Shown piece after piece: positions 591 to 30,495 of a DNA stretch of 64,000 nt. The translations under genes were made by a program, and so were the position numbers. The stretch is taken from NCBI RefSeq assembly GCF_003697845.1, contig NZ_RDQE01000009.1, positions 1 through 64,000 on the forward strand, read 5' to 3'. Origin of the DNA: Halobellus captivus (lineage in GTDB: Archaea; Halobacteriota; Halobacteria; Halobacteriales; Haloferacaceae). The notes below the pieces were generated by a model. The model saw only the letters and a list, made by a program, of their open reading frames with translations. It had not been told where the DNA came from and did no database searches. How positions within the stretch are numbered: the stretch's first letter is position 1; every line of letters begins with the position of its first letter.

Positions 591-1151
591 ATGACGAACC
601 CTGCAGACTCGATCGAGATCCAGAACGTAGTTGCATCGACGGGGATCGGCCAGGAGCTCGACCTGGAGGCCCTTGCGGAGGACCTCCCGGGGGCTGACTT
701 CAACCCCGACAACTTCCCCGGACTCGTCTACCGGACCCAGGAGCCGAAGGCGGCGGCACTCATCTTCCGGTCGGGCAAGATCGTCTGTACGGGCGCGAAG
801 AGCATCGACGACGTTCACGAGGCGCTCGGGATCATCTTCGAGAAGCTTCGCGGGCTCCAGATCCCCGTCGAGGAGGATCCCGACATCACGGTCCAGAACA
901 TCGTCTCGAGCGCGGACCTCGGCCACAACCTCAACCTCAACGCCCTCGCGATCGGGCTCGGGTTGGAGGACGTCGAGTACGAACCCGAGCAGTTCCCCGG
1001 CCTCGTCTACCGGATGGACGAGCCGGAGGTGGTGATCCTGTTGTTCGGCAGCGGGAAGATCGTCATCACCGGCGGGAAACGGACCGACGACGCGGAGGGA
1101 GCGGTCGAGGAGATCGTCGAACGGATCGAAGGGCTCGGCCTGCTGGGTTGA
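591..1151 (+). CDS. tbp: TATA-box-binding protein TBP
   Basis: General transcription factor that binds TATA boxes and recruits TFB and RNA polymerase. The 186-residue product has the two direct repeats of the TBP saddle, visible as 'FPGLVYR' at about residues 43-49 and again in the second half, each followed by 'SGKIV'. The first repeat begins near 'IEIQNVVAS' and the second near 'ITVQNIVSS'. Length matches archaeal TBPs and the C-terminus has the usual short tail. The ATG at 591 follows a TATA box by about 31 bases. It converges on orc1 with a 20-base gap. Haloarchaea often carry several tbp paralogues; this one next to orc1 is probably chromosomal, but which paralogue it is cannot be told from this window. 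Confidence 0.97.
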   Translation: MTNPADSIEIQNVVASTGIGQELDLEALAEDLPGADFNPDNFPGLVYRTQEPKAAALIFRSGKIVCTGAKSIDDVHEALGIIFEKLRGLQIPVEEDPDITVQNIVSSADLGHNLNLNALAIGLGLEDVEYEPEQFPGLVYRMDEPEVVILLFGSGKIVITGGKRTDDAEGAVEEIVERIEGLGLLG

Positions 1152-1171: not shown

Positions 1172-2377
1172 TCAGCTGCTCGTGGAGTCCTCGACGAGTA
1201 CCTCCTTGACGACGCCGGGGTCCTCGAGGAGTTGGTGTTTGGTGTAGCTTCCTTCAGCGCTGCCGCCGCTGTGTTTCGACTGTTCGATGATGTCGAGAAA
1301 GGCGTGTTCCTTGAGTAGGTCGCGAACGCGGCGCAACGAGAGACTATCGGACCCCTCCTGTCGACAGATGTTCTCGTATATCTCGTACACCCGGCTGGTT
1401 CGAAACCCGTCGTTTCGCTCGTGTGAAAGCGAGAGCAACGCGAGAGCCTGGAGGACGTATCGCGAGTGGGGCGTCGATCCGCGGATGAGTTCCCGGAATC
1501 GATCCGTTTCGGCGCGCTCGCGCGCCTGCGTGACGAACTCCTCTCTGACCGTTGGCTCGCCGTTGGCCTGAGCGATCTCGCCGGCGTACCGGAGGATGTC
1601 GATCGCCTTTCGGGCGTCCCCGTGCTCGCGGGCGGCGAGCGCGGCCGCCCGTGGGATCGTCGATGCCTCGAGGACGTCGTCGTGGAACGCGTCGGACCGG
1701 GCCTGCATGATCGCTCGAAGCTGGTTCGCGTCGTAGGGCGGAAAGACGAACTCGCGTTCACAGAGGCTCGATTTGACCCGCTCGTCCATCCGGTCTTTGT
1801 ACTGTATCTTGTTGCTGATCCCGACGACGCCGAGCTTACAGTCGGTGATCTTCCCGGCCTCTCCGGCACGGGACAGTTGCATGAGGATGGCGTCGTCGTC
1901 GAGCTTGTCGATCTCGTCGAGGATGATCAACACCACGTCGTAGCGCTGGTCAAGGATCCGCCAGAGCCGTTTGTAGTACGTCGACGTCGAGAGTCCCTTG
2001 TCCGGGACGTTGATCCCGGTCGTCTCGGGGTCGTTCACGCCTTCGGCGATGGTCTGGACGGCCTGCGTCTCGGTCGTGTCCTGTGCGCAGTCGACGTAGG
2101 CGAACGTCGCGTTGACGCCCTCCTCCCCCGCCGTCGACACCAGACGCTTGGAGACGTACTTCGCACAGAGCGACTTCCCCGTCCCGGTCTTTCCGTAGAG
2201 GAGAACGTTACTCGGACTCTGTCCGAATATCGCGGGGTTGACCGCGGTGGCCAGATCGGAGATCTCGTCGTCGCGGCCGACGATCCGGCCTTCGCCCGGG
2301 AGATGGCTTATCTCGAGGAGTTCCTTGTTGGCGAAGATCGGGTCCTCCCTCGTGAAGAGATCGTCCGCTGCGTCCAT
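1172..2377 (-). CDS. orc1: Orc1/Cdc6 replication initiator
   Basis: Origin-binding AAA+ ATPase that recognises ORB elements and loads the MCM helicase. The 401-residue product has Walker A GKTGTGKS at residues 62-69, Walker B 'LDEID' near 153-157, the AAA+ lid, and a C-terminal winged helix ('SLRRVRDLLKEHAFLDII'), in the usual order and length. The ATG at 2377 is preceded within a few bases by an ORB sequence, which suggests autoregulation of the initiator as well as origin activity. It converges with tbp; upstream is a large histidine kinase gene and then the main ORB pair. Haloarchaea carry many orc/cdc6 paralogues; association with an inverted ORB pair points to an oriC1-type chromosomal initiator. 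Confidence 0.96.
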   Translation of the reverse strand: MDAADDLFTREDPIFANKELLEISHLPGEGRIVGRDDEISDLATAVNPAIFGQSPSNVLLYGKTGTGKSLCAKYVSKRLVSTAGEEGVNATFAYVDCAQDTTETQAVQTIAEGVNDPETTGINVPDKGLSTSTYYKRLWRILDQRYDVVLIILDEIDKLDDDAILMQLSRAGEAGKITDCKLGVVGISNKIQYKDRMDERVKSSLCEREFVFPPYDANQLRAIMQARSDAFHDDVLEASTIPRAAALAAREHGDARKAIDILRYAGEIAQANGEPTVREEFVTQARERAETDRFRELIRGSTPHSRYVLQALALLSLSHERNDGFRTSRVYEIYENICRQEGSDSLSLRRVRDLLKEHAFLDIIEQSKHSGGSAEGSYTKHQLLEDPGVVKEVLVEDSTSS

Positions 2378-2379
2378 AG

Positions 2380-2405
2380 GAGAGACACCGCGTTTCCGGT
2401 GAAAT
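2380..2405 (+). promoter_or_regulatory. ORB element at the orc1 start
   Basis: Core tttccggtgaaat at 2393-2405, preceded by gagacacc, matches the two ORBs bordering the AT-rich gap at 5411-6193. It lies directly before the orc1 ATG, so binding there would cover the likely transcription start. ORB function is established for archaeal Orc1/Cdc6; autoregulation here is inference. Confidence 0.8.
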
Positions 2406-2554
2406 ACGTTCTGTTTCTCCGCCCCGACGTTCCGGGGATGAGAGAACGGAGACGAGGATGGAGCGGCCGTGATCGCGGCTTCGTCGTGACCTCCGTTCGG
2501 TCGGTACAGGAACGGTATCCGTACGAGTATTCGATCTATACACTACGTTCGAGA

Positions 2555-5410
2555 TCAGTCGTCACCACGTGCGATATCAGTGAACTCGAAGCGGGCCCCG
2601 CCGGCCTCGCTCTCGGTTACCCGGACCTCCCAGCCGTGTGCGTCGACGATCTCCTGGACGATCACGAGGCCGAATCCGGTTCCGTCCTCGCGCGTCGAGT
2701 AGCCGGACTCGAAGACCCGCTCCCGCTCGTCTTCCGGGATCCCGGGACCGTCGTCCGCAACGTAGAAACCGTCATCCAAGTCGCCGACGGTGATCGACAC
2801 CTCGCCGCCGCCGTGTTCGACGGCGTCGCCGGGCTCCGCCCGGCTGCCAGTGGAACCGTGTTCCACACTGTCGCCGGACTGCGTCCGGCTGCTCGTCGAG
2901 CCGTGCTCGACGCTGTTCCGGAACAGGTTCTCCAACAGCCGTGCGAGCCGGTTCCGGTCGGCCCGAACCGTGCGATCGACGAGGACTTCGAGCGTCGCCG
3001 CGGCGGTGTCCACGTTCGCCCAACACTCTTCGATGAGCCCGGCCAGGTCGACCGGCGCCGAATCGGTCACGTGGACTCCTTCGCGTGCTACCTGCAACAG
3101 GTCGTCGATCAACACCCCGATCCTGTCGTGTGCCTTCGCCACCGCGTCGAGATGTTCGCTGTCACACTCCGTTCGGGACAGGTCGAGATATCCCTCAGCC
3201 ACGTTCAACGGGTTCCGCAGGTCGTGGGAGACGATGCTTGCGAACTCCGCTAACTGTTCGTTCTGTCGTTCGAGCTCCCGCTGGTGCTCGATCCGACCGA
3301 GCGCGGTCGTCGTGTGTGCGGCGACGGTCTCCGCGAGCGAGACGTCGACATCGTCGAACGCGTCGGGGGCGGTCGATCCGATGAGGAGCACGCCGTGATC
3401 GTCGAGCGGGAGGACGATCTCGCTCCGGATGGACGTCTCCGGGTTGAACCGTTCGGAGATCGTCGAGATGTCGTCGTAGATCAGGGGTTGGCCCGTCTCG
3501 AACGCCTTCCAGGCGAGCCCTTCGCCGGGCGAGAACGCCGGCGGTTCACCGACGAGCTCCTCGGTCAGATCCGTCCACGCGACCGGCACCAGTTCCTCGT
3601 CGTCCTCGTCGTGGAGGTGAATGGCACTCGCCGGCATATCGAGGACGTCGTGAACGGTCTCGACGGCTATCTCGGCCGCTTTCTCGGCCGTTTCGGCTCG
3701 TACGACCGACTGTGCGGTCTCGTGTAGCGTGTTGATGACTCGCTTGTGCTGTTCCCGCCTGGTAACGTCCGTAATGAAGCCCTCCAGTTCCTCTACGTGG
3801 CCGTCGTCGTAGATCCCCTGACCGCGCTCCCACACCCACTTGACGTCCCCGTCCTTGGTGCGGATCCGGTAGGTGATCTCGAACGGTTCGCGTCCGTCGA
3901 GTGCGTCCTGTATCGAACTCCAGACCGCCGCTCGGTCGTCGGGATGGATGATCCGTTCGCCGTAGATTCCGGCCCTCTCCACCAGTTCGGAGGGCTGATA
4001 TCCCGTCAGATCCGTCACCTCACCTCGAACGTCCTCCATCGGCCACCCGGGTTTGTTGCCACACCGGTAGACCATTCCCGGGAGGTTATCCACGAGCCGT
4101 TTGAGCTGTCGTTCGCGTCGCTTGCGCTCGGTGAGGTCCCGGCCGATCCCGATGAGTCCGATCAGATCGCCGTCGAGGTCGGTCAAGCGGGATCCGGTGA
4201 ACTCGTAGGGAACGCGTTCGTCGTCCGCCGTCAGGAGCGCGGATTCGACGGTCGTCTCTCCGGTGACGAGGGCCTCCTCGATCGCGTCGGCGATCCGCTC
4301 CCGGTCGTCCTCGGGGAAGAGATCGGTCGCTCGCATCCGTCCGAGCGCTTCGTCCGTATAGCCGGTGACCGCGGCGAGGTGGTCGTTCCACCGGCGGAAC
4401 GTCCCGTCGGCGTTGATGACGTAGAAGACGTCATTGAGCGAATCGAGGGCCTGCTCGACGAAGTCGCGTTCCTCACGAAGGCTCGCTCGCACCTCGAAGG
4501 AATGGAGGACGTGAGCGATGTCGCTCCCGAGTTCGTCGAGGAGATCGCGCTCGTTCGCGTCGAAGGCGTTCGGACGATCGGCGTAGACTACCAGCACGCC
4601 GTACAGCGTGTCCCGATATTCGAGCGGGAGGGCGGCAACCGCGCGGAATCCGCGTTCGATCGCTTCCGCTTTCCACGGTTCGAATCGGGGATCCTCGGCG
4701 ATGTTCTGTGAGACGGCGATCCGCCGTTCACGGATCGCCGTCCCTGCGGGTCCCTGCCCGGTGGGGCTCTCGTCGGTGGTGATGGTGATCCCGTCGAGGT
4801 ACCCGCGTTCCATGCCCGCGGACGTTTGCGGTTCGACGCGGTTCGTTTCGGGGTCGATCTCCCCGATCCACGCGAACAGGTAGGGGTCCGATTCGCTGAA
4901 GATCTCACAGACGCGGGTTTCCACCGCCGCCCGCGAGTCCGCACGCACGATCGCCTGGTTGATGTCGCTGGCGAGTGTACGGATCCGGTCGAGTTCGGCG
5001 GCCCGCTGGCTCGTCCGATACTGCTCGACCGCGTTGGTGACGCGGTTCGCGAGGACCGTGTACTGACTCGTTCCGCTCTCCTTCTGGAGGTAGTCCGTGA
5101 CGCCGGAGGCGATCGCGTCGCTTGCGACCTCCTCGCTGCCCTTGCCCGTATAGAGAACGAAAGGGAGGCCCGGGTTCTCCTCGCGGACGGCCTCGAGGAA
5201 CTCGATACCGTTCCGACCGGGCATGTCGTAGTCGGAGACCACACAGTCGACGTCGCCGTCGGCGACGCGATCCAGTCCCTTGCTCGCGTTCGACGCGATC
5301 TCGACGTCGATCCGGTCGTCCTCGCGTTCGAGAAAGGTCGCAGCCATCTCCGCGAGCTCCGGCTCGTCATCGACGTGGAGGACACGGATGGCGTCTGGAG
5401 ATGAGCTCAT
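2555..5410 (-). CDS. Hybrid sensor histidine kinase with N-terminal receiver domain
   Basis: Cytoplasmic signalling protein of 951 residues. Order: response-regulator receiver 1-125 (LHVDDEPE; acceptor Asp about residue 60 in 'VVSDYDMPG'), GAF about 150-300, PAS about 310-420, PAS about 430-545, GAF about 560-700, HisKA (IVSHDLRNPLNV) about 715-780, HATPase 820-945 (DDGPGIP, GTGFGLVIV). No membrane segment. I chose ATG 5410: the frame stays open to 5572 but that extension runs through the ORB at 5516-5551 and is not protein-like. The N-box region carries two extra 15-residue copies of 'SVEHGST.SR...GD' (DNA 2808-2927), so 'VEHG' occurs three times. The gene sits between orc1 and the inverted ORB pair. 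Signal and partners are unknown. Confidence 0.93.
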   Translation of the reverse strand: MSSSPDAIRVLHVDDEPELAEMAATFLEREDDRIDVEIASNASKGLDRVADGDVDCVVSDYDMPGRNGIEFLEAVREENPGLPFVLYTGKGSEEVASDAIASGVTDYLQKESGTSQYTVLANRVTNAVEQYRTSQRAAELDRIRTLASDINQAIVRADSRAAVETRVCEIFSESDPYLFAWIGEIDPETNRVEPQTSAGMERGYLDGITITTDESPTGQGPAGTAIRERRIAVSQNIAEDPRFEPWKAEAIERGFRAVAALPLEYRDTLYGVLVVYADRPNAFDANERDLLDELGSDIAHVLHSFEVRASLREERDFVEQALDSLNDVFYVINADGTFRRWNDHLAAVTGYTDEALGRMRATDLFPEDDRERIADAIEEALVTGETTVESALLTADDERVPYEFTGSRLTDLDGDLIGLIGIGRDLTERKRRERQLKRLVDNLPGMVYRCGNKPGWPMEDVRGEVTDLTGYQPSELVERAGIYGERIIHPDDRAAVWSSIQDALDGREPFEITYRIRTKDGDVKWVWERGQGIYDDGHVEELEGFITDVTRREQHKRVINTLHETAQSVVRAETAEKAAEIAVETVHDVLDMPASAIHLHDEDDEELVPVAWTDLTEELVGEPPAFSPGEGLAWKAFETGQPLIYDDISTISERFNPETSIRSEIVLPLDDHGVLLIGSTAPDAFDDVDVSLAETVAAHTTTALGRIEHQRELERQNEQLAEFASIVSHDLRNPLNVAEGYLDLSRTECDSEHLDAVAKAHDRIGVLIDDLLQVAREGVHVTDSAPVDLAGLIEECWANVDTAAATLEVLVDRTVRADRNRLARLLENLFRNSVEHGSTSSRTQSGDSVEHGSTGSRAEPGDAVEHGGGEVSITVGDLDDGFYVADDGPGIPEDERERVFESGYSTREDGTGFGLVIVQEIVDAHGWEVRVTESEAGGARFEFTDIARGDD
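2808..2927 (-). repeat. 45-base tandem repeat inside the kinase N box
   Basis: The coding strand repeats a 45-base unit encoding SVEHGSTSSRTQSGD, then SVEHGSTGSRAEPGD, then a partial copy AVEHGGG. It falls exactly at the ATP-binding N box. The units are similar but not identical, so the expansion is not very recent. Confidence 0.85.
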
Positions 5411-5515
5411 GGGCCGCGTGCTTTCGGGAGATTGGGAGCCAAAACAAATAATATATGCGGCCGATCGGTCGAGTTCGCGTGCTACGGGATTCGTGTTGTG
5501 TATTTGATAGATATT

Positions 5516-5551
5516 GGGGACACACACCGGGTTTCCGGTGAAATGGGTCGG
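5516..5551 (+). promoter_or_regulatory. ORB element, left side of origin
   Basis: Core tttccggtgaaat at 5532-5544, preceded by ggggacacacaccgg and followed by gggtcg and a G/GT-rich string to about 5566. Nearly identical to the reverse complement of 6053-6086. Confidence 0.85.
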
Positions 5552-5799
5552 GCGGTGGTGGTGGGGATTCATCGGAAACGAGGTGTGGCCCCAAACGAAG
5601 GCACGAAGAGAGTCGAGTCAGACGAGACGTATCAAATCGAACGAATCAAACGGGACGGATCAAACGGAAGGAACGGAGACAGCCCGATACCGAACTACAA
5701 ACGGCAACGAAACACGAACTCGTCGTCGATCGTGAAACCGTAGAAAACGAATCGTGAGAGAAGAAACGCCAGCATCACGCTGTCAACGGCATGTCATTT

Positions 5800-5840
5800 A
5801 CACCGTACCGCTCACACCGTACCGCTCACACCGTACCGTT
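5800..5840. repeat. 14-base tandem repeat in the origin core
   Basis: acaccgtaccgctc at 5800-5813 and 5814-5827, then acaccgtaccgtt at 5828-5840. Two perfect copies and one shortened copy, inside the AT-rich gap between the inverted ORBs. Confidence 0.9.
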
Positions 5841-5953
5841 ACACCATCGACGTGAACAGATCGGGCCTTCCGCTGTATCTCACAGTATGACTACACGACG
5901 TTCGTCTAATGACTACAATTGACTCGACGAACTTTTCTCAAGTAGTATATTTA

Positions 5954-5997
5954 GTAGTACGGGTTTTCATTCGAAGTAGTACGGGTTTTCATTCGAG
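5954..5997. repeat. Perfect 22-base tandem duplication in the origin core
   Basis: Two identical adjacent 22-base units, 5954-5975 and 5976-5997, each beginning agtagtacgg and ending cattcga. It lies 56 bases left of the right ORB, in the most A+T-rich part of the gap. It could be an initiator-protein iteron or an unwinding aid. Confidence 0.9.
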
Positions 5998-6052
5998 ATA
6001 GAACCGTATATTCCAACGCTGGAAGGGAACCCACTCAAAACGACAGAGCAAA

Positions 6053-6086
6053 CGACCCCATTTCACCGGAAACACGGTGTGTCCCT
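6053..6086 (-). promoter_or_regulatory. ORB element, right side of origin
   Basis: Core atttcaccggaaa at 6060-6072 is the exact reverse complement of the left ORB core, and the flanks (cgacccc on one side, acacggtgtgtccc on the other) also match. About 515 bases separate the two cores. Confidence 0.85.
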
Positions 6087-6134
6087 CACCAACATCAGAA
6101 CGGATCCGGGTCGTCGTGTCGATTCGGTATTCGA

Positions 6135-6193
6135 TCGGAGAAGAGCGGGAGGAAAGGAAGGAAAGCGAAGAGAGAACAAAAGAGAACAGCGGA
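6135..6193 (-). terminator. Pyrimidine-rich tract after the winged-helix gene
   Basis: Read on the minus strand, the bases just past the stop of the gene at 6194-7045 are a long C/T run with several TTTT/TTTC groups (plus strand is an A/G run with aaaaga and ggaaagga). Archaeal termination is favoured by U-rich runs, so this could keep transcription out of the origin. It may equally add to strand asymmetry of the origin. Confidence 0.35.
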
Positions 6194-7045
6194 TCAGGGC
6201 TGATCTCCGACGGGGTCGTGGACCTCGTATCGAACGCCGCTTTCCCGGAGTTGCGTCGTGTGACGCGAGAGTTCGTCGGTGGACACGAGAAGTAACACGT
6301 CCAGGCCGCGAAGCGCGGCCTGCGGGACGGCATCGACCGTCCCGAAGCGGATCTCGGGATGGATCCCGGCCCGCATCGCCAGCGCGTACGCCTCTGTACC
6401 GGCTATCGCGACGAATCCCTCGTCGTTCACACGCTCGGTCACGACTTCGACGGACGGCGGTTTTTCCTCGGTCACGACCGGAACGGGGATCACGGTTACG
6501 ACGCCGGGATCGTACTCGACGACACCCTCAAACTCGGTGACACCGATCGCCTCTCCGGCCACTCCACCTGTGACGGCGACCGCAGTCGCGGACGTCTCCT
6601 CGTCAGACGATGCCTCTCCACCAGTCGACGTCTCGGCGGCCTGCTCAGCGGTCGCATGAAGGACCCCATCACGCATGGTCAGCCCGACTTCATCATCTTC
6701 AGAAACCGGATCGATGGCGATCGCGGCGTCGACGTCGACGCTTCCGAGGACGTCCTCGGACACCCGGGAGACGAACTCCGAGAGCGCGTCGGTCCGCGTG
6801 ATGAGCCAGTCGACGCCCTCCTTCGTCACCTCGTATCTCCCCCGTCCGCCTTTCTCCACGTACCCTCGCTCGACGAGCTCGCGAACGTAATCGCTCACGG
6901 CCTGCGAGGTGACTCCGAGAACCTCGGCGATCTCACCCTGGCTCACCGCCGGCTGACGGGCCGCGATCTCGACGAGCACTCGATACTTGCTGGCGTCACG
7001 CTTGTTATCGAGCACTCGCGGGGCGACGGCTCCTTCGTCGTCCAT
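6194..7045 (-). CDS. Winged-helix protein beside the origin
   Basis: A 283-residue DNA-binding protein. Residues about 18-78 form a MarR/IclR-like winged helix ('GEIAEVLGVTSQAVSDYVRE', then 'LVERGYVEKGGRGRYEVT'). The middle is a variable acidic/Ala-Thr linker (about 120-150); the C-terminal half ('VAIAGTEAYALAMRAGI', 'GLDVLLLVS') looks like an alpha/beta fold I do not recognise. Transcription runs toward the origin and stops 108 bases right of the right ORB. In Haloferax, origin-associated genes (oap) lie next to oriC1; this may be the counterpart, but I cannot confirm that. It could regulate origin-proximal genes or bind the origin itself. The ATG at 7045 is the only sensible start. Confidence 0.85.
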   Translation of the reverse strand: MDDEGAVAPRVLDNKRDASKYRVLVEIAARQPAVSQGEIAEVLGVTSQAVSDYVRELVERGYVEKGGRGRYEVTKEGVDWLITRTDALSEFVSRVSEDVLGSVDVDAAIAIDPVSEDDEVGLTMRDGVLHATAEQAAETSTGGEASSDEETSATAVAVTGGVAGEAIGVTEFEGVVEYDPGVVTVIPVPVVTEEKPPSVEVVTERVNDEGFVAIAGTEAYALAMRAGIHPEIRFGTVDAVPQAALRGLDVLLLVSTDELSRHTTQLRESGVRYEVHDPVGDQP

Positions 7046-7107
7046 AGCAACAGTCGTGGTGTTGAAAACAAGTATGTTTGGTGTTTCGGCGTTCCCGATG
7101 GCGATAC

Positions 7108-7167
7108 CACGCCGACGAAACCATCGTCACGCCGACGAAACCATCGTCACGCCGACGAAACCATCGT
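7108..7167. repeat. Three perfect 20-base tandem repeats
   Basis: cacgccgacgaaaccatcgt occurs at 7108-7127, 7128-7147 and 7148-7167 without a mismatch, then cac begins a fourth copy. It sits between the malic enzyme stop (7181) and the winged-helix start (7045), both on the minus strand, so it is in a 3' untranslated or promoter region. Confidence 0.95.
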
Positions 7168-7180
7168 CACGTCGAGAGGC

Positions 7181-9433
7181 TCACTCCTGTGCGTCGACGA
7201 CCGCGACGCCGGCCAGGTTGACGATGTCCTTCACCTCGTCGCCGCGCTGGAGGACGTGAACCGGCTCGTCCATTCCGACCAGCATGGGTCCGATCGCCTC
7301 CGCACCGCCGAGCCGCTGAAGCAGTTTGTATCCGATGTTGCCGGCTTCGAGGTTCGGGAACACGAGCACGTTCGCGGCCTCGTCGAGTTCGGAGAACTCG
7401 TAGGTTCCGTTGAGTATCTCGTCGACGACCGCGGTGTCCGCCTGCATCTCCCCGTCGACCGGGAAGTCGACCTCGGGGTCCTCGTGGAGGAGGTCGACCG
7501 CCTCACGCGGCTTTCGCGTGCCCTCGTTGTCGACGCTCCCGAAGTTCGAGTACGAGAGGACCGCCGCGCGCGGCTCGACGTTGAACCGCCGAGCGAGATC
7601 GGCGGTGTGCCGAGTGATCTCCGCGAGCGTCTCCCGGTCCGGGTCCTGGTTGACGGTCGTGTCCGCACAGAACACCACCCGGTTCTTGAACGTCAGCATG
7701 TACACGCCGGCGACGGTGTCGGTGTCGGCCGCCGAGCCGATCACCTGAAGCGGCGGCCGCAACGCCGAGGGATAGTGATGGGTGAGTCCGGTCAACAGCG
7801 CGTCGGCGTCGCCGGCCTTCACCATGACGCTCCCGAGGTAGTTGGTGTCCCGCTCAACGAGCTCGTTGGCCTCGCGTCGAGTGATCCCCTTCCGTTTCCG
7901 AAGCTCGTACAGCCGGTCCCCGTAGGCGGTGACGTCCCGTTCGTCGGGGTCCACGATCTCCGGACGGAACGAGAGCCCGAGATCGGCCGCCGTGCGAGCG
8001 ATCTCGTCGGCGTCGCCGAGCAACACCGGCTCGGCGATCCCCTGCTCGGAGAGCTGGTAGGCCGCTCGGATCATCTTCTCGTCGGTCCCCTCGGCGAGCG
8101 CGATCCGTTTCGGATCGCTTTTCGCCTTGTTCAACACGACTCGCATCATCTCGCGGGACTTCCCGAGCCGCGCCTCGAGCCGCTCGCGGTACTGCTCGAG
8201 GTCGATCTCGGTCCGTGCGGATCCGGACTCCATGGCCGCCCGTGCGACCGCGGGAGCGACCTCGAAGAGCACGCGGGGATCGAGCGGCTTCGGGATGACG
8301 TAGTCGGGACCGAACTGGAGCGGGTCGTCGCCGTACGCCTTCACGACCGCGTCAGGGACGTCCTTGCGCGCCAGCTCCGCGAGCGCCGTCGCCGCCGCCC
8401 GCTTCATCTCCTCGTTGATCTCGGTCGCGCGCACGTCGAGCGCCCCACGGAACAGGAACGGGAACCCGAGGACGTTGTTCACCATGTTGGGGTAGTCGGA
8501 CCGACCGGTCGCCATGATCACGGTGTCATCGCGAGCCGACTTCGCGTCCTCGTAGGTGATCTCCGGGTCGGGGTTCGCCATCGCGAACAGGATCGGGTCC
8601 GACGCCATCGATCGGACCATCTCCTGTGAGACGATGCCGCCGACGGAGAGACCGACGAACGCGTCCGCGCCCTCCATCGCGTCCGAGAGATCGCCGCCGT
8701 CGACGTCGCTCGCGAACTCCCGTTTGTACTCGTTGACGTCGCCCGCCTCGGCCCGCTCCTCCGTGATGATCCCGGAGGAGTCACACATCGTGATGTTCTC
8801 GCGTTTCGCACCGAGCGAGACGTAAAAGCGAGCGCTCGCGATCGCGGACGCGCCCGCCCCCGAGAAGACGATGTCGAGCTCGGAAAGGTCCTTGTCGACG
8901 ATGTCCGTGGCGTTCAGAAGCGCCGCCCCAGAGATGATCGCGGTCCCGTGTTGGTCGTCGTGGAAGACGGGGACGTCCATCTCCTCGCGGAGGCGCTCCT
9001 CGATCTCGAAGCACTCGGGCGCCTTGATGTCCTCGAGATTGATCCCGCCGAAGGTGGGCTCCATCGCGGAGACCGCGGTACAGAACGGGTCGACCTCCTC
9101 GATGTCGAGTTCGATGTCGAAGACGTCGATGTCGGCGAAGCGCTTGAACAGAACTCCCTTCCCCTCCATCACGGGCTTCGACGCGGCCGCGCCGATGTCG
9201 CCGAGCCCGAGCACGGCCGACCCGTTCGAGACGACCGCCACCATGTTCCCCTTCGCCGTGTACTCGAAGACCGACTCCGGGTCGGCCGCGATGTCCCGGC
9301 ACGGCGCGGCGACTCCCGGAGAGTACGCCAGCGAGAGGTCTCGCTGGGTGTTCGTGGGCTTCGTCGTCGAGATCTCGATCTTCCCCGGCGGCTCCTGCCG
9401 GTGGTACTCGCGTGCGTCGTCGTCCAATCCCAT
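7181..9433 (-). CDS. maeB: Malic enzyme with C-terminal phosphotransacetylase-like domain
   Basis: Oxidative decarboxylation of malate to pyruvate with NAD(P), feeding gluconeogenesis and NADPH supply. The 750 residues split into a malic enzyme part (about 1-425: 'YSPGVAAPC' near 36-44, '[14 protein letters not shown]', '[11 protein letters not shown]', Rossmann '[10 protein letters not shown]', 'MANPDPEI') and a phosphate acetyltransferase-like part (about 430-750: '[18 protein letters not shown]', '[18 protein letters not shown]'), the usual MaeB architecture. In MaeB proteins the second domain is generally regulatory, binding acetyl-CoA, rather than catalytic. ATG 9433 follows a T/A-rich promoter at about 9460-9470. 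The gene is likely monocistronic. Confidence 0.95.
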
Positions 9434-28934: not shown

Positions 28935-29382
28935 ACGCCGTCCTACGAGGCCGAGGGTAAAAACGGTTCGCCGCTCGGGGAGGTCGGCGGGACGTCTCGG
29001 CTCCACCTCGCTGGGCCGTTCGATCGACGACGGATCGATACTAGAAACGATCCGAGTCTGTCATTTACGGAAAGTGAGTCGAAAAACATCGGTCGAGATG
29101 GAGTTAGATCGACCGTCAGTAAAGAATTCGAGCGTCGACTCGAGGGTCGCCGTTCTGCCGAAACATCGGGAAAATTCATACGTTTTCCGTCATGTCCACT
29201 GACACATTCCAGATCCCGATTCGGTGAGTATCTCCTATAATTACGGAGTACTACTGGTGGTGTAAACGAGTGATGAACGATATCAAATATGTTTTATACC
29301 GAATTCGTTCGACCGGAACGGAGACAGCAACTCACTAATAAGTAAATTTATAATGTGCGATGCGAGATTACAGGATACATCC
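28935..29382. other. Gap with bmp promoter region
   Basis: 448 bases between divergent genes, richer in A+T than the flanks. It has several TATA-like words: ctataatt near 29232, gttttatacc at 29291-29300 and tttataat at 29347-29354. No gene is supported. Confidence 0.6.
29347..29354 (+). promoter_or_regulatory. TATA box of the nucleoside transporter operon
   Basis: tttataat lies 36 bases before the ATG of the BMP lipoprotein at 29383, giving a transcription start near 29375 and a very short leader. A further TATA-like tttatacc at 29293-29300 could be a second promoter. Confidence 0.65.
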
Positions 29383-30495
29383 ATGACAGATAGACAGGCG
29401 GAAGTCGACGGGACGTCCGGGATCGATCGTCGGATGCTGCTCGCGTCCGGCGGCGCGCTCGCGACGGGCACCGTCTTCGCCGGGTGTCTCGGCGGGGGCG
29501 GCGGAAGCGACGACGGCGGCTCGGGCGGCTCCACCACGCAGGTCGCGATCATCTCGAGCCCGGCCGGCTTCGACGACAACGCGTTCAACGACAACGCGGT
29601 CGAAGGACTCGAACAGGCGTCCGAGGAGTTCGATCTCGAGTACACGACGGTCGAGGAGACCCAGGAGGCACAGTACGAGTCCGTTCAGGCCGACACCGCC
29701 GAGAGCGGCTACGACCTCATCATCTGCGTCGGCGACAACCACACCGACCCGCTGTCGACGAACGCCGAGGAGTATCCCGACCAGAACTGGATGCTCATCA
29801 ACAACGTCATCGAGGGCGCCGACAACGTCTCGGGCTGGATCGAGATGAACAACGAGATGTCGTTCCTCGCGGGCGTCGCCGCGGGCGTGATGACCCAGGA
29901 GGACTTCGAGTACGAGGGCAGCTCCACCGACCCCGACGGGTCGACGGTCGGCTTCGTCGGCGGCGAGGACATCCCGCTCATCAACGCGTTCGAGCAGTCC
30001 TACATCGAGGGCGTCGAATGGGTCGACGACGGTATCGAAGTCCTAACCGGCTACGGCGGGAGCTTCTCCGACACGGGCGCGGCCAACGACGTGGCCGAGT
30101 CACAGATCGACGACGGGGCCGACATCGTCTGGCACGCCGCGTCCGCGGCCGGCGGCGGCGTCTTCTCGGCCGCACAGGACAACGGGCGATTCGCGCTCGG
30201 GGTCGACGTCGACCAGTCGGTCGCCGAAGAGCAGTACCAGGACGTCATCCTCGGATCCGCCGTCAAGGCGCTCAACGAGGCGACGTACACCGTCTCCGAG
30301 GCCGTCGTTAACGGGAACTTCTCCGAGTACGTCGGCGAACAGAACCTCTCCGTCGCACAGGGCAGCATCGACTTCGTCGTCGGCCAGGCCTTCGAGGGCG
30401 AACTCCCCGACGCGCTGAACGAGAACATCCAGGACGCGAAGGAAGGGTTCGAGAACGACGAGATCGAGCTGACCTGCGGCCCGACCAGCTGCTGA
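29383..30495 (+). CDS. BMP family substrate-binding lipoprotein (nucleoside binding)
   Basis: Extracytoplasmic binding protein of the basic membrane protein / PnrA family, which binds nucleosides. 370 residues. N-terminal Tat-type signal with twin Arg 'DRRMLLASGG', hydrophobic core and lipobox 'VFAGC', then a Gly-rich tether 'GGGGGSDDGGSGGS'. Two alpha/beta lobes begin near 'VAIISSPAGFDDNAFNDNA' with the PnrA-like 'GYDLIICVGDNHTDPL'. ATG 29383 is chosen because the signal begins there. It leads an ATPase and two permeases, 52 bases ahead of the ATPase, so all four form one operon with the ATP/permease genes overlapping. Confidence 0.93.
   Translation: MTDRQAEVDGTSGIDRRMLLASGGALATGTVFAGCLGGGGGSDDGGSGGSTTQVAIISSPAGFDDNAFNDNAVEGLEQASEEFDLEYTTVEETQEAQYESVQADTAESGYDLIICVGDNHTDPLSTNAEEYPDQNWMLINNVIEGADNVSGWIEMNNEMSFLAGVAAGVMTQEDFEYEGSSTDPDGSTVGFVGGEDIPLINAFEQSYIEGVEWVDDGIEVLTGYGGSFSDTGAANDVAESQIDDGADIVWHAASAAGGGVFSAAQDNGRFALGVDVDQSVAEEQYQDVILGSAVKALNEATYTVSEAVVNGNFSEYVGEQNLSVAQGSIDFVVGQAFEGELPDALNENIQDAKEGFENDEIELTCGPTSC

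Follow-up and report, generated by a model that had tools for sequence, protein, structure and literature searches.

Linkage of the ORBs to the initiator gene is regarded as one of the features that define archaeal replication origins and as long conserved; origin finders rely on it, and the haloarchaeal initiator-replicator pair is held to be tightly linked. In the 64-kb stretch of DNA analysed here (the window; contig C37 of a 37-contig draft genome, Halorubrum by comparison), a histidine kinase gene separates an orc/cdc6 gene from a pair of facing ORBs. This raises the question to which origin type the locus belongs, and whether such an origin may operate at a distance from its initiator gene.

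Initiator gene, ORBs and AT-rich region

The orc/cdc6 initiator gene (1172..2377, minus strand) is of the oriCb (Orc5) type, encodes Cdc6_lid, Cdc6_C and AAA domains and is 93–99 % identical to orc of Halorubrum. Codon differences within the clade (79–101 synonymous versus 5–6 replacement) indicate strong purifying selection. The tbp gene for the TATA-binding protein (591..1151, plus strand; Pfam TBP, 3.7e-61), located between the rRNA operon and orc, neighbours orc in almost every Haloferacaceae locus. Beyond the origin, domain search and synteny identified a conserved neighbour coding for a winged-helix DUF7839 protein (6194..7045, minus strand) and a malic enzyme/phosphotransacetylase fusion gene (7181..9433, minus strand), the usual origin flank in Halorubrum. 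Between these two genes, a sequence of about 22 nt (CACGCCGACGAAACCATCGT...) was noticed by eye to recur in tandem at 7100–7170.

The exact 14-mer GTTTCCGGTGAAAT occurs three times in the window, at 2392–2405 (+), 5531–5544 (+) and 6060–6073 (−), confirming the identical cores at 2393, 5532 and 6060 (reverse) listed in a preceding sequence-only reading; 100 shuffles of the window yielded 0 copies, the expected number being 0. The longer form ACACCNNGTTTCCGGTGAAA has four copies in the 3.59-Mb genome, i.e., the three ORBs of the window and a solitary one, and reversed controls gave 0 matches across 52 genomes. The first 14-mer is the core of the promoter ORB of orc (2385..2405, plus strand), which carries no G-string. 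This ORB had been thought to overlap the start of orc, which is incorrect, as its core precedes the ATG at 2377 by 15–28 nt. All 81 loci compared (the window and 80 homologous loci) have a promoter ORB, positioned at −27 to −43 relative to the orc start; the element and its retention with orc fit the autoregulated initiator proposed earlier.

The remaining two copies constitute the origin pair, 26-nt inverted arms that are 96 % complementary and 509 nt apart. Sequence comparison revealed a long G-string (16 G in 24 nt) at the inner ORB (5522..5566, plus strand) and an eroded one (8 G in 24 nt versus a typical, median count of 14) at the inward-facing outer ORB (6050..6082, minus strand). Both G-strings point inward across the AT-rich stretch. 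Facing the inner ORB is a degenerate ORB with two mismatches (5567..5585, minus strand), recognized as a conserved block in the clade alignment; it represents a fourth ORB of the locus, absent from the earlier list.

The inward orientation of the pair over an AT-rich gap had likewise been read correctly: 250-bp windows at 5701–6200 fall to 45.6 % GC versus a window mean of 67.9 %, making the gap the second lowest in GC of the 64-kb window, after a position at ~29.1 kb. Within the window, AT content is highest at 29001–29450 (42 % GC in 250 bp). GC windows and alignment delimit a putative unwinding region (5701..6000) harbouring tandem repeats of 14 nt (three copies, 5800–5841) and 22 nt (two copies, 5953–5996), neither of which is evident in the alignment of relatives, as well as a conserved core containing TGACTACA...TGACTACA from 5888. 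In an alignment of the six clade members having both ORBs, the ORB pair and an AT-rich core of ~110 bp are kept in displaced and undisplaced members alike. The TGACTACA pair was also considered as a genus-wide origin element and rejected, being convincing in the window clade only. In the GC-skew test suggested with the earlier reading, the origin displays only a weak local inflection (87th–92nd percentile), with a peak of the same sign as at the Orc1 locus and no better than there, which speaks neither for nor against an origin.

The solitary exact ORB, ACACCTCGTTTCCGGTGAAA, lies without a G-string outside the origin (C12:213378-213397 of the window genome, G000) and was found in at least nine genomes (loci L108–L116). 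In the window clade as well as G016, it lies downstream of the gene for nucleoside diphosphate kinase, which in L108 means between convergent genes at their 3' ends; in four other species it occupies a different site about 65 kb from the origin. The word is invariant although its flanks diverge, and it possibly serves as an Orc titration or control site.

Assignment to the oriCb type

The oriCb type has been published as comprising an orc at least 80 % identical and adjoining a syntenic rRNA operon (Wu et al. 2012, PMC3528665); its member in Haloferax volcanii is oriC2 with Orc5 (PMC7776575). The window Orc is 88–99 % identical to those encoded in equally flanked loci of Haloferax and Halorubrum, these loci having been compared rather than the Haloferax volcanii Orc5 record. 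In the colinear relative G001, the position matching base 1 of the window precedes the 16S 5' end by 90 bp; by this alignment, an rRNA operon is judged to be syntenic beside orc, the window genome's own operon lying beyond the contig end. An rRNA operon just past the window end would explain why many contigs end there. Inverted ORBs with G-strings, the outer one weak, surround the AT-rich region; they are not directly adjacent to orc, the inner ORB being located at −3166 with a gene between. Placement of ORBs in the intergenic region adjacent to orc is a prediction criterion of Wu et al. (PMC3528665). Since adjacency is thus a criterion for prediction and not a demonstrated mechanistic need, the locus is termed a derived variant instead of a standard member: judged by its sequence, it is a haloarchaeal oriCb origin, in its Halorubrum version, whose arrangement is derived and unlinked.

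The locus had previously been interpreted as a functional oriC1. A likely chromosomal origin is upheld by the facing ORBs and the conserved AT-rich core, whereas the name is not. No Orc1/Cdc6A gene lies beside the origin; the best Cdc6_C match is on contig C34, and this gene, which we take to be of the Orc1 type from its length, its universal presence and the general features of the family, forms with the window orc the pair of Orc types shared by all eight genomes examined. Because the Orc1-type gene resides on C34 and the window orc is of the rRNA-linked oriCb type, the oriC1/orc1 label was rejected.

The Haloferax oriCb loci resemble the window in an 88–89 % identical Orc, the rRNA operon on the orc side and, among the loci compared, the tbp neighbour, and oriCb loci likewise have an AT-rich region between facing ORBs with G-strings. 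In the standard arrangement, however, the origin is located directly upstream of orc, whereas in the window it lies 3.1 kb away beyond the kinase gene and its outer G-string is eroded. The second chromosomal origin of Haloarcula hispanica, oriC2-cdc6E, likewise lies close to an rRNA operon and has additional ORBs not serving as origin, but by description is not of the tbp/rRNA-linked oriCb type; moreover, its extra ORBs are downstream of the gene and titrate Cdc6E, while the promoter ORB of the window is upstream (PMC3936714). Haloarchaeal oriC1-orc1 (cdc6A) shares the general plan of facing ORBs with G-strings, yet employs a different initiator, encoded on C34 in the window genome.

Separation of orc and origin in a Halorubrum clade

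The distance of 3 kb between initiator gene and ORB pair, already suspected to be unusual, is so indeed: a second same-orientation (inner) ORB is located within 664 bp of orc, i.e., at no more than 0.67 kb, in 77 of the 81 loci, and at −72 to −134 (median −92) in 28 other Halorubrum. Six Haloferax and Halobellus loci only apparently lacked the inner ORB, an effect of the mismatch threshold. The four exceptions are the window, Halorubrum aquaticum, Halorubrum halodurans and strain 48-1-W, which in an orc+tbp tree are interspersed with three unseparated genomes (Halorubrum cibi, Halorubrum rubrum and G001) in one well-supported Halorubrum clade of seven members. The gap between orc and origin is 3.1 kb in the window (to the inner ORB, with the kinase gene between), 7.6 kb in G033 and 11.9 kb in G012, each on a single contig and in the latter two inverted; in G005, orc and origin are on different contigs, at least 22 kb apart if joined, a lower bound set by the draft assembly. 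Junctions also vary: inverted segments carry malic enzyme and arginase-family genes in 48-1-W and aminotransferase and transporter genes in Halorubrum halodurans, and polysaccharide genes lie on the orc side in Halorubrum aquaticum, the origin of which is on another contig. Since the junction differs in each exception, at least three separate unlinking events are implied. From these comparisons, the unlinking of initiator gene and origin is derived and recurrent, with both halves conserved. The linkage of ORBs and initiator, previously inferred to be conserved over long evolution (PMC4441112), is contradicted locally by the genomes of this clade.

The intervening gene (2555..5410, minus strand) encodes, according to domain search, a histidine kinase of receiver-GAF-PAS-PAS-GAF-HisKA-HATPase architecture. 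It is single-copy in the window genome, its sole copy residing in the orc-origin spacer. In G001, G007 and G022 the gene is part of a shared syntenic block, which on C1 of the window genome is present without the kinase gene and with the site differently filled. The single copy and the empty ancestral site demonstrate that the gene moved; no kinase remains were found in the relatives' spacers. The spacer of unseparated clade members already measures 0.5–0.65 kb, and in G001 and Halorubrum cibi it holds a dispersed repeat with GGGACTCAAAGGGGCAG. The repeat has 9 to 75 copies in clade genomes (9 in the window genome; 75 places in G001, e.g., C1:2498707) and 0 to 143 per Halorubrum genome. In 48-1-W, a stretch related to it adjoins the inner ORB, and the repeat is absent from the old site of the kinase gene. 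The copies of L104 and L106 have no Rfam match, and no known RNA family is present in the spacer, only rRNA and one tRNA nearby.

Working of the locus and alternative explanations

The sequence elements are probably best explained by an unlinked oriCb origin on which an autoregulated Orc acts in trans. The protein encoded at 1172–2377 would bind the facing ORBs at 5522–5566 and 6050–6082 and load MCM in trans at the AT-rich unwinding region between them, allowing the origin to fire. It would also bind the ORB without G-string over its own promoter, block TBP there and so repress its own gene. Loss of the cdc6 promoter killed plasmid activity at another origin (PMC4441112); in the window, the promoter stayed with orc despite separation from the origin. 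The short spacer may first have grown to about 0.5 kb in this lineage, partly by dispersed repeat sequence, and the enlarged spacer would then have been a repeated break site, into which the histidine kinase gene relocated in the window. The repeats may have guided the breaks.

The erosion of the outer G-string to 8 G in 24 nt, versus a median of 14, makes a dormant or dying origin conceivable, where unlinking and erosion reflect loss of activity, oriC1 performs most of the work, and a different role maintains orc with its promoter ORB. Mutation of either G-string abolished plasmid replication at oriC1 of Haloarcula hispanica (PMC3936714), and a dormant oriC4 in Haloferax mediterranei (PMC4595724) as well as inactive ORB-bearing origins in Haloarcula (PMC3528665) are known. 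Such decay is nevertheless rather unlikely, given that the inner ORB and its G-string are intact, the AT core is conserved, the displaced relative G033 has an exact ORB pair with good G-strings, the window Orc is under purifying selection and the Orc5 origin is active in Haloferax volcanii (PMC7776575). We therefore rank a working, trans-served origin clearly above a dormant one.

Two further explanations concern the kinase gene. Its position between promoter ORB and origin, on the orc strand and with its start preceded by the inner ORB at a distance of about 115 bp, would suit a functional insertion, by which a sensed signal controls initiation or orc expression and a sensor is joined to replication; this is very improbable, as orc lies within about 1.5 kb of the gene in 0 of 10 other genomes of the genus with a close kinase homologue and no shared kinase-orc link exists elsewhere. 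A wrong join of the kinase gene between orc and origin might be expected from a draft genome of 37 contigs, but is scarcely credible in view of the single kinase copy, flanks unlike the ancestral ones, the ancestral site being empty and differently filled, and two relatives with other same-contig separations.

Recurrent unlinking in Halorubrum was not found to be reported in the open-licence literature. A clade where three species keep the same origin linked and four have it unlinked offers a natural test of the need for linkage, and shows that real origins can escape prediction based on adjacency. The balance leans slightly towards a wider reading, in which initiator and replicator were unlinked at least three times in one clade with both halves under selection. 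If this holds true, an Orc5-type origin can work wholly in trans, and linkage would be dispensable.
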